Source: an uncultured Actinomycetes bacterium
GTDB lineage: Bacteria > Actinomycetota > Acidimicrobiia > Acidimicrobiales > Microtrichaceae
Length of the DNA stretch: 33,145 nucleotides
NCBI GenBank assembly: GCA_903852755.1
Contig: CAINRS010000137.1
Span: 1 to 33,145 of the forward strand
Direction: 5' to 3'
The notes beneath the pieces were generated by a model that saw only the letters and a list, made by a program, of their open reading frames with translations, made no database searches and was not told the DNA's origin. This document shows positions 20,280-23,786 of the stretch, piece by piece. Positions within the stretch are counted from its first letter, which is position 1; each line of letters begins with the position of its first letter. Position numbers and translations under genes: made by a program.

Positions 20280-20408
20280 GCCCCACCGCCCGCACCGCCC
20301 CGATCGGTGGTGGCATGATGGCCGGGCCCGCACGCAGCTGCGCCGACACCGGGGGAACGATCGGTCGGTGACGCCGTACGTCGGGCACGGACGACGGTGA
20401 GGGGGGAC

Positions 20409-21803
20409 ATGCGACGATCAGCCAGTCCGACTCCACGACGCACCACGACGGTGCTCGCCGCTGTGGCCGGGGTACTGGCGCTGTTCGGCGCAGCGTGCAG
20501 CGAACCGGAGCCGACCGCGGCGACGAGCACCACGGCGCTCCCGATCGCCACCGACTCGGTGGAACCCTCGGCCGGTGACGGCACCACGGTGCTCTCCAGG
20601 TTCCAGGGGTCGTCGTGGTTCACCGGAGCGGTACCGGCTCCGGCCGCAGCCGACACCGGAGCCGCGCCGATCAGGATCGGCTTCACCAACGTCGACTCGG
20701 GTCCGATCGGCGCGTTGCCCGAGCTGCACGCAGCCGCCGATGCCGCCGTCGCGCTCATCAACGGTGAGCTCGGCGGCGTGGGCGGGCGGCCCGTCGAGCT
20801 CGTCCCGTGCATCCTGTCGAACCCACTCTCGGCCGACGAGTCGCAGGCGTGCGGGCGACAGTTCGCCGACAGCGGTGTCGTGGCCGTCCTCGGGGGCATC
20901 GGGTTGTCCAACGGCCCCATGATCGACGTGCTCGAGCAGAACGGGATCCCCTACGTGGGCGGCATCCCACTCAACAGCCCCGAGATGACGAACCCGCAGT
21001 CCTTCCAGTTCTCCGGAGGGAGCCCCGGGGCGTTCGTCGCCTTCGCACAGGACGCCGTGGAACGGGTCGGGGCGGAGCGGATCGCGATCCTCTTCGCCGA
21101 GTACCCGGCCATCCAGGACGCCGCGCTGAACTACGGCGCGGCCGTCGCCCGGGCCCTCGGGGCAGAGGTCGTCGAGGTGCCGTTCCCGATGGTCAGCCAG
21201 GACTACTCCGCCGCCGCCCAGAAGGCGGCCGAGTCCAACCCGGACGCGATCTTCGTCGGCGCCGCCGACCTGGCGTGCGCCCCGATCATGCAGGCCCTCG
21301 CGGACCTCGGCTCGACGGCCGAGGTCTACATGGTCGGCGCCTGCGCCGATGCCAAGCAGATCGACAAGGTCGGCGTCGACCGGGTGCTCGGCTACCTGTT
21401 CAACGTCGAGGGGCGGATCGACCAGGGGGACGGGCTGGCCGACACCGAGATCTACACCCTCACCATGGAGCGGTACGCGCCAGGCACCAACGCCCGGTCG
21501 GCGGCGACGGTCGGGTTCCGCTCCGCCATGAACCTCTGGGCGGTGCTCGACCGGCTCGGGCCCGACGCGACGTCCGCTCAGGTGACCGAGGCCTTCCGCT
21601 CCGCCCGCGACGTCCCGAGCTTCGACGGCCACCCGTACTCCTGCGGCGGGTCGCTCATCCCCGCCCTGCCGTCGATGTGCGCACCGCAGGAGGTCATCGC
21701 CGAGCTCACGGGCCCGTCGCAGTTCGTCGAGGCCTCGGACGGGTGGATCGACGTCCCCGGTGTGCTCGAGCGCCTCGGGATCGCCGCCCAGCCGCCCGGC
21801 TGA
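20409..21803 (+). CDS. livK: Liv-type ABC transporter substrate-binding lipoprotein
   Basis: 464 aa. Arg-rich N-terminus, hydrophobic core and lipobox GAAC with lipid Cys at residue 30, then a long Ala/Thr/Pro linker. The mature domain (from IRIGFTNVDSGPIGALPEL) has the type I periplasmic-binding fold with AADAAVALINGELGGVGGRPVEL, shown here only as AADAAVALINGELGGV and GGRPVEL, and ends in a segment with two Cys pairs. It captures the solute for the permease encoded directly downstream. Ligand unknown; Liv-family members bind amino acids, amides or organic acids. ATG 20409 has GAGGGGGG just before it. The stop is in the same frame as the permease, with only 18 nt between stop and the presumed permease start. 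Confidence 0.87.
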   Translation: MRRSASPTPRRTTTVLAAVAGVLALFGAACSEPEPTAATSTTALPIATDSVEPSAGDGTTVLSRFQGSSWFTGAVPAPAAADTGAAPIRIGFTNVDSGPIGALPELHAAADAAVALINGELGGVGGRPVELVPCILSNPLSADESQACGRQFADSGVVAVLGGIGLSNGPMIDVLEQNGIPYVGGIPLNSPEMTNPQSFQFSGGSPGAFVAFAQDAVERVGAERIAILFAEYPAIQDAALNYGAAVARALGAEVVEVPFPMVSQDYSAAAQKAAESNPDAIFVGAADLACAPIMQALADLGSTAEVYMVGACADAKQIDKVGVDRVLGYLFNVEGRIDQGDGLADTEIYTLTMERYAPGTNARSAATVGFRSAMNLWAVLDRLGPDATSAQVTEAFRSARDVPSFDGHPYSCGGSLIPALPSMCAPQEVIAELTGPSQFVEASDGWIDVPGVLERLGIAAQPPG

Positions 21804-21821
21804 TCCCGACCGGAGCCGACC

Positions 21822-23786
21822 ATCACCTCCACGCTCGCCTACCTGATCCTCGGTCTCGGCGGCGGCGCCGTGATCGCCGCCCTGGGGCTCGGGGTGGTCG
21901 TCACCTACCGCAGCGACGGCGTGGTGAACCTGGCGCACGCGGCGATCGGCTCGTTCCTGGCGTTCGCGTTCTACGAGTTCCGGGAGACGGGCGACCTCGT
22001 CCTGCCGCTCGTGGGACTGCCCAACCGGATCCCCGTGATCCCCCGTCCGACGGTCGCCACCGCTCTGGCCGTGATCGTGGTCTACGGCGCGGCGATCGGA
22101 CTGCTGCTGCACGCGCTCGTGTTCCGGCGGCTCCAGCGGGCCCCGTCACTGGCGCGGGTGGTGGCGTCGATCGGACTGTTCCTCTACGCGTGGTCCGTCA
22201 TCGGCCTGGAGTGGCCGCTGTCGCCGAACGTCCGACCGCTCCTGCCCCGGGACAACGTCGTCGTGCTCGATCGACTGGTGGGGGTCGACCGACTCGCGCT
22301 GGCCGGCATCGTCGTGGTCGCGACGGCACTCCTGTGGCTGGTGAGCACCCGGACCCGGTTCGGCACCGCCACCACAGCGGCCGCGGAGAACCGCAAGGGG
22401 GCGGTGCTGCTCGGCATCAACCCCGACCGACTGGCGGCGTGGAACTGGATGCTCGCAACCGTGTCGGCGGGACTCGTCATGGTGCTCGCCGCCCAGGTCA
22501 TCTCGCTCGACCCGCTCAACAACTCGCTGCTGATCGTGCCGGCGGTCGCAGCGGCACTCCTCGGCGGGTTCCGTTCCTACCCGCTCGTCGCTGCGGCGGG
22601 GCTGGGCATCGGCATGCTCCAGTCCCTGCTGCTGAGCATCCAGGCCGACGTCGACTGGCTGCCCGACATCGGGCTCCAGCAGGGGCTCCCGTTCCTCATC
22701 ATCGTCGTCGTCATGGCCGTGCGGGGCGACAGCCTGCCGACCCGCGGGGCGGTCCGTGAGGGCCGGTTCCCGGCGGCGCCCGAGCCGACCGGCGTGGTGC
22801 CCGTGACCGTCGCGCTCACCGCCGTCGCGACGGGAATCCTGGTGTGGGGGGCATCGGACCTGCGGGCGGCGGTGATCACCTCGTCGATCTTCGCCCTGTT
22901 CGCGCTGTCGGTGATCGTGCTCACCGGGTTCGTCGGCCAGATCTCGCTGGCGAGCTACGCCTTCGCCGGAGTGGCGGCGTTCACCATGGTCAGGTTGTCC
23001 GACGCCGGGGTGCCGTTCCCCCTCGCACCGGGTCTGGCCGTCGTCGCAACCTGCGGTCTCGGGGTGCTGGTCGGGATCCCGGCCGTCAAGGTCCGCGGGC
23101 TCAACCTGGCGATCGTCACGCTGGGCGCCGCCGTGGCCATCGGTGAGCTCCTGTTCAAGTGGGAGTGGTTCGTCGGGTCGATCACCGCGACCGAGGTGCC
23201 GGAACCCGGGATCGGACCGCTCGACCTGGGGATCAGCGCCCCCGGCGACGCCTACCCCCGGGCCGCGTTCGGTCTGATGTGCCTGGTGGTCGTGGTGGTG
23301 GCGGGGCTCGCCGTGGCCAACCTGCGCCGGAGTCGCACCGGGCTGCGGTGGCTCGCCGTGCGCGCCAACGAACAGGCGGCGGCCGCAGCCGGGATCGACG
23401 TCGGGTGGGCCAAGCTCACGGCGTTCTCGGTCTCCGCGACGCTCGCGGGTGCGGCCGGGACGCTGCTCGCCTACCAGCGGTCGTCGATCTCGGCCGACAG
23501 CTTCGGGGTGTTCAACTCGCTGTCGCTGCTCGCGCTCACGTTCCTGGCCGGCATCGCCGTCATGTCCGGCAGCGTGGTGGCGGGTGTCCTCGCGCCGGTC
23601 GGCGTGCTGGCGATCGCGCTCGGACAGGACGTCGGGAAGCCGTCGCCGTACCAGTTCGCCATCTCGGGGATCCTGCTGGTCCTGGTCACGGTGCTCTACC
23701 CCGACGGCATCACCGGACTCGTGCGAGCGGGCGGGCGCCGCCTCCGGGCGCGTGGGCGTCCGGAGACGGCACCGGCGACGGCCTGA
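21822..23786 (+). CDS. livHM: Fused LivH-LivM permease with a non-canonical start
   Basis: About 654 aa. The LivH half (to about residue 300) has VVNLAHAAIGSF and the ENRKGAVLLGINPDRLAAW loop; the LivM half (from about 345) has LTGFVGQISLASYAFAG, the VRGLNLAIVTLGAAV helix and the ANEQAAAAAGIDV loop. One chain thus supplies both membrane subunits of the importer. No ATG, GTG or TTG exists between the upstream TGA and GTG 21870, yet codons 21822-21869 (ITSTLAYLILGLGGGA) make the expected first half of helix 1. AUC at 21822 has GGAG 6 nt upstream and is used here. Starting at GTG 21870 would cut the helix. CTG 21843 is another option. Confidence 0.82.
   Translation: MTSTLAYLILGLGGGAVIAALGLGVVVTYRSDGVVNLAHAAIGSFLAFAFYEFRETGDLVLPLVGLPNRIPVIPRPTVATALAVIVVYGAAIGLLLHALVFRRLQRAPSLARVVASIGLFLYAWSVIGLEWPLSPNVRPLLPRDNVVVLDRLVGVDRLALAGIVVVATALLWLVSTRTRFGTATTAAAENRKGAVLLGINPDRLAAWNWMLATVSAGLVMVLAAQVISLDPLNNSLLIVPAVAAALLGGFRSYPLVAAAGLGIGMLQSLLLSIQADVDWLPDIGLQQGLPFLIIVVVMAVRGDSLPTRGAVREGRFPAAPEPTGVVPVTVALTAVATGILVWGASDLRAAVITSSIFALFALSVIVLTGFVGQISLASYAFAGVAAFTMVRLSDAGVPFPLAPGLAVVATCGLGVLVGIPAVKVRGLNLAIVTLGAAVAIGELLFKWEWFVGSITATEVPEPGIGPLDLGISAPGDAYPRAAFGLMCLVVVVVAGLAVANLRRSRTGLRWLAVRANEQAAAAAGIDVGWAKLTAFSVSATLAGAAGTLLAYQRSSISADSFGVFNSLSLLALTFLAGIAVMSGSVVAGVLAPVGVLAIALGQDVGKPSPYQFAISGILLVLVTVLYPDGITGLVRAGGRRLRARGRPETAPATA

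Follow-up and report, generated by a model that had tools for sequence, protein, structure and literature searches.

Several bacterial genes are known to begin at codons that differ from AUG in the third base. In staphylococci, infC (AUA), cvfC1 (AUU) and ccpN (AUA) have conserved starts of this kind, each accompanied by an extended Shine-Dalgarno sequence (PMC13009471). The AUU and AUA starts of Staphylococcus aureus give approximately 10% of the output of AUG in poor medium, and the ccpN start gives up to 30% in rich medium (PMC13009471). In Escherichia coli, infC and pcnB start at AUU (PMC1780047, also cited in PMC13009471 and PMC9845219). AUC is mentioned in passing among annotated bacterial starts, and the accessible part of that source names no conserved gene that uses it (PMC9845219). 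Here, we describe a predicted start at AUC, very rarely used for initiation in bacteria, in a fused permease gene (LivHM) located on a 33,145-nucleotide stretch, hereafter the window, from an uncultured bacterium of the Microtrichaceae (order Acidimicrobiales; assembly GCA_903852755.1, contig CAINRS010000137.1, positions 1 to 33,145). The window genome (G000; G and L numbers are our own handles for genomes and loci) is a draft assembly that totals 3,156,556 bases and is split into 168 contigs. In the literature searched, outside which most subscription papers lie, no conserved AUC start of a bacterial transporter was found. We consider it about 90% probable that the permease is translated from AUC 21822 as formylmethionine, inefficiently, and that this start acts as a brake on its production.

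The permease gene occupies positions 21822..23786 of the + strand and would encode 654 amino acids from its ATC (21822..21824, +). Two BPD_transp_2 stretches (PF02653) were computed by Pfam in one chain (E 3.1e-48), and we take the protein to be the LivHM-type permease of branched-chain-amino-acid-type ABC importers. The stop codon of the preceding binding-protein gene, TGA at 21801-21803, ends 18 nt ahead of the ATC, and the frame stays open past it. No in-frame ATG, GTG or TTG occurs between this TGA and the GTG at 21870..21872 (+), which is codon 17 and the first standard in-frame start. The open reading frame (ORF) list begins the permease at this GTG, giving 638 amino acids, 16 codons shorter than the form beginning at ATC. 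The Shine-Dalgarno sequence GGAG (21812..21815, +) lies 6 nt (CCGACC) ahead of the ATC, with a computed duplex energy of -5.8 kcal/mol, and a CTG stands in the permease frame at 21843, as codon 8. The coordinates of the stop, the Shine-Dalgarno sequence, the ATC, the CTG and the GTG, and the lack of a standard start before GTG 21870, had been given correctly by the first-pass annotation, which left four options: initiation at AUC, initiation at CUG 21843, readthrough of the TGA, or an erroneous base at 21824. Initiation at AUC is the option that survived the comparison with relatives, in which ATC was found in every one of the six genus genomes and in 27 of the 70 homologues counted.

An orthologue is present in each of the six genus species examined, always with ATC at the same codon. 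The other five species come, according to their record titles, from separate assemblies with differing bins and sampling series, and their proteins are 79-91% identical to the window permease. Of 33 genomes searched in the family, 23 yielded a match, and 12 of these, from six genera, carry ATC as the aligned first codon. Two further family searches found matches in 8 of 24 genomes and in 11 of 37, the order search drew 397 genomes, of which 95 matched at 1e-100 (matches below about 46% identity were left out of the reading), and the phylum search drew 396 genomes, 14 of them with a match. Across 70 homologues, the first codon is ATC in 27, GTG in 19, ATG in 18, ATT in 3, CTG in 2 and TTG in 1, and all three ATT homologues have a GTG just upstream. 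In 11 of the 70 rows, the counted codon was moved inward by hand to a standard start, by one codon in ten rows (G073, G347, G316, G281, G142, G193, G263, G107, G244 and G435) and by three in G037; G013, G434 and L173 were left out because their N-termini were too short. Between the ATC and the nearest in-frame stop before it, 20 of the 27 ATC rows contain no standard start. These 20 rows span 12 genera and five families, and G455, a one-contig genome, lies outside the order.

A tree of the 70 proteins, built by a quick method, contains a clade with a support of 100 in which ATC is the sole first codon; its 11 members are the ATC rows closest to the window and come from five genera. The ATC label changes 10 times on the tree, compared with a mean of 21.8 after shuffling, and none of 500 shuffles gave a value as low. 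As judged from this distribution, the ATC state is old. Thirty-eight homologues have standard starts, which fall exactly at the place of the ATC in 27, one codon further in 10 and three codons further in 1. The first-pass annotation had proposed to look in homologues for ATG or GTG here; more distant relatives pass this test, whereas the close ones keep ATC. Other arrangements were also seen among LivHM homologues. L043 (G010) and L056 (G325) carry CTG at the start place, where it overlaps the upstream stop as CTGA, and four loci of genus g6 (L038-L040 and L048) read GTG ATT GGC, with GTG one codon up and ATT replacing ATC. Among 15 LivHM paralogues of the genus that were opened, 10 start at GTG or ATG and 4 have no clear start; one (L018 in G004) has ATC at the aligned place, but with GTG 3 and 6 codons above it.

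The boundary of coding sequence was located by comparing the six genus species. In codons 2-16, pairwise differences amount to 16%, 2.2% and 38% at codon positions 1, 2 and 3, respectively. Upstream, they amount to 60-69% at every phase from -60 to -16 and to 44-49% at all phases from -15 to -1, and the ATC itself shows no differences. By this measure, coding-type conservation begins at the ATC. Shine-Dalgarno runs similar to that of the window precede the ATC in most orthologues. The median Shine-Dalgarno energy is -6.3 kcal/mol in the 27 ATC rows and -3.2 kcal/mol in the 38 standard rows (Mann-Whitney p 4.7e-5, a value that overstates independence, since the rows are related). A Shine-Dalgarno excess before ATC codons at gene starts could not be shown (20 of 67, against a background of 24%).

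Two further features of the start region vary within the genus. In the window, GGAG 21812-21815 can pair with CTCC 21827-21830 (codons 2-3), leaving the AUC in the loop, and only some genus members keep this pairing. The start ATCACCTCC resembles what we take to be the 3' tail of 16S rRNA and is likewise kept only in some members. RNA structure around the start, computed over the six sequences, gave 18 pairs with one two-sided change and a covariation term of +0.2, and no structure is claimed.

Several observations weigh against a start at AUC. The tree shows repeated exchanges between ATC and ATG, GTG or CTG, and ATC was found at the aligned place in none of the 14 homologues opened outside the 70 (L048, L049, L050, L051, L164 to L172 and L174). 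The seven ATC rows other than the 20 mentioned above have a standard in-frame codon upstream. It lies at least 34 codons away in G003, G004 and G005, and standard codons lie 13 to 77 codons upstream in G144, G264 and G060, which belong to one genus; G377, with an ATG 5 codons above the ATC, is ambiguous. The Shine-Dalgarno sequence is weak in two ATC rows (G069, -2.4; G401, -3.9 kcal/mol). In addition, all six invariant isoleucine columns of the ten full-length clade members, codon 0 included, read ATC in every row, and therefore the constancy of the third base alone carries little weight. In the same ten members, 3 of 152 invariant columns of four-fold amino acids keep one codon. The case for the predicted AUC start is thus one that rests on the missing alternatives and on the coding boundary.

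The remaining point of this kind is the standard codon at codon 17, which six ATC rows out of 27 share, counting the window, and which also favors a start at GTG 21870, the choice of a simple ORF finder, with a protein 16 residues shorter. We regard this reading as improbable. The other 21 ATC rows place their first standard codon elsewhere, and over all 27 it is scattered from codon 6 to codon 44; therefore, there is no shared alternative start. Moreover, codons 2-16 evolve as coding sequence, and the 27 standard-start homologues noted above begin at codon 0, not at the residue matching GTG 21870 that the first-pass annotation had considered. The GTG was rejected on its lack of a shared counterpart and on the coding conservation upstream of it. 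The CUG at 21843 is present in all six genus species, but no Shine-Dalgarno sequence was seen by eye before it, and the codons above it lie within the stretch 2-16 that is conserved in a coding pattern, so it was rejected as well. Readthrough of the TGA, or a frameshift, would yield a fusion of binding protein and permease, as the open frame of the window would allow. In relatives, the stop and the ATC stand in frames 0, 1 and 2 and at varying distances, and therefore no shared readthrough or frameshift joins the proteins. G002 has two in-frame TGAs before its ATC, and the spacer shows no protein-type conservation. Such a fusion was rejected as a shared mechanism and is very improbable. The draft state of the window genome, with its 168 contigs, might suggest that the codon is really ATG and that base 21824 was wrongly sequenced or assembled; the five separately assembled species of the genus have the same base, as do other genera and families, and we hold an error to be the least credible of these explanations.

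Coupled re-initiation is a more serious rival, although we still consider it doubtful. Ribosomes finishing the binding protein would restart at the nearby Shine-Dalgarno sequence, with less stringent selection of the start codon, and AUC would work only through this coupling. Among the 23 ATC rows in which the distance was measured, most do have a long upstream ORF that ends 9 to 81 nt ahead of the ATC (18 nt in the window), and where CTG occupies the start place, in G010 and G325, it overlaps the upstream stop. For G002, G003 and G004, the distance was taken from a separate reading, the script having picked the wrong ORF. In relatives, the ORF upstream of the ATC was assumed to encode the binding protein, the domain scan having covered the window only. 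The long upstream ORF of G008 ends 25 nt past the start of the ATC, and the upstream ORFs of G030, G371 and G069 are short (347, 228 and 171 codons, respectively). Against coupling, the distance from stop to ATC varies widely and all three frames occur. Near-cognate starts are also found in the same family without such a neighbor, namely the AUA of infC and the ATC of an AI-2E-like transporter gene behind its own promoter-like box.

The gene upstream of the permease, on the same strand and adjoining it, encodes a substrate-binding protein of the Peripla_BP_6 family (20409..21803, +; PF13458, E 2.2e-37). Its N-terminus appears lipoprotein-like by eye. The ATG at 20409 was chosen by us as its start, behind AGGGGGG at 20400-20406; the first start in the ORF list is GTG 20397. 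The two genes are probably carried on one mRNA. Having an ATG and a Shine-Dalgarno sequence of its own, the binding protein would be made in excess over the permease, whose poor AUC start would probably act as a fixed brake, giving much binding protein and little polytopic permease per mRNA. What the sequences show directly is a conserved AUC, its Shine-Dalgarno sequence, the coding boundary and the lack of any other start, and this AUC appears to be an inefficient on-switch that has been retained.

The ordinary CAU initiator tRNA would read AUC as formylmethionine with a third-base mismatch, aided by the well-spaced Shine-Dalgarno sequence. The initiator arm was searched for in 13 genomes with a pattern open to either anticodon, CAU or GAU; the 11 matches, spread over 9 genomes, were all CAU. 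No GAU initiator arm was found in the 13 genomes, and G000, G001, G002 and G025 gave a match of neither kind. An AUC-reading initiator tRNA was rejected on these grounds. The window genome has 46 tRNA places, all typed, with one methionine tRNA, which we take to be elongator-like; an initiator tRNA gene was not seen among the 46, perhaps owing to a gap in the draft. P-site decoding, on which IF3 has a modulating influence, would be inefficient at starts with a third-base mismatch. IF3 discriminates against start codons that match poorly, and the output of the permease may therefore vary with IF3 activity, as that of infC presumably does.

Other near-cognate starts were sought in the same lineage. 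In the family, infC was matched in 28 genomes, and in each of the 21 that were opened the gene starts at AUA (near position 42595 of G000:C134, plus 20 of the loci L175-L202); G028 has standard codons upstream in frame as well. A screen of 761,211 bases and 645 predicted genes of G000 looked for coding signal at least 6 codons above the first ATG, GTG or TTG. Some upstream signal was found in 11 genes, and only LivHM (8.0) and the AI-2E-like gene (22.5) exceeded 5 log units, a limit set after the list was seen. A weak candidate at C63:13677 (2.3) has ATC at the boundary and a standard start with a strong Shine-Dalgarno sequence 7 codons on. In G018 (389,000 bases, 333 genes), LivHM ranked top with 9.9 and the next gene scored 4.2. 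In G025 (386,000 bases, 315 genes), the screened stretch ended within the LivHM gene, and the one ORF above the limit (7.6, on C23) was dismissed as an artefact lying on the opposite strand of the LivHM gene. Near-cognate starts of this sort are otherwise very rare in the screened genomes.

The AI-2E-like transporter gene (PF01594) has ATC as its first codon at G000:C43:60676 on the - strand (loci L223-L230). In leaderless mRNA genes, a TANNNT box lies 6-7 nt before the start. TAGGCT or TAGGAT, 6 nt and then ATC occur in 8 of the 9 genomes opened, belonging to three genera: the six genus species, G007 and G010 have this arrangement, and G012 is without it. Matches were found in 14 genomes; G013 to G017 and a second match in G010 were left out. 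The TAG of the box forms an in-frame stop 4 codons above the ATC, and in 5 of the 8 genomes with the arrangement the first residues are I-D-[DE]-x-R. An order-wide search at E 1e-50 gave no additional genus. In gene-start zones of G000 (379 genes, 430 kb), TANNNT lies 5-7 nt before 69 ATG or GTG codons, compared with about 5.5 expected, and leaderless starts look common in the lineage. ATC with TANNNT showed no excess in such zones (1 against 1.5 expected), and therefore the AI-2E-like case rests on conservation and not on enrichment. Two ATC codons of G025 with a TANNNT box failed a stricter filter, after which only the AI-2E-like gene of G000 was left. A leaderless AUC start is likely for this gene, which may thus combine AUC with leaderless initiation. 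It is a tentative idea, which we hold to be less probable than not, that the lineage uses AUC as a recurrent, selected class of start that restrains certain membrane transporters, with a Shine-Dalgarno sequence in LivHM or without a leader in the AI-2E-like gene, tied to IF3.

AUC has been kept over many genera in a permease that is probably needed in a smaller amount than its partner, and the locus therefore offers a direct test of whether poor start codons are selected for operon stoichiometry. In annotation, an ORF finder limited to ATG, GTG and TTG truncates the permease. The gene resembles other LivHM-type permeases in its two BPD_transp_2 stretches and its adjacent Peripla_BP_6 protein and differs from them in its AUC start. 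Compared with leaderless genes, the AI-2E-like gene is alike in having TAGGCT or TAGGAT exactly 6 nt before the first codon and unlike in its ATC, whereas LivHM does not look leaderless. E. coli infC and pcnB, as far as the sources cover them, share with LivHM an inefficient third-base-mismatch start that limits the gene, which for LivHM would be expected. They differ in that the LivHM product is a transporter, for which no evidence of autoregulation was seen. The staphylococcal infC, cvfC1 and ccpN starts are a close parallel, being third-base near-cognates that are conserved across species and served by a strong Shine-Dalgarno sequence. The LivHM case, known here from sequence, differs from them in its codon (AUC), its gene (a fused ABC permease, second in the operon), its spread (many genera and several families) and its phylum. 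Conserved near-cognate starts with a strong Shine-Dalgarno sequence were already known, and the new part is the predicted conserved AUC start of a transporter permease.

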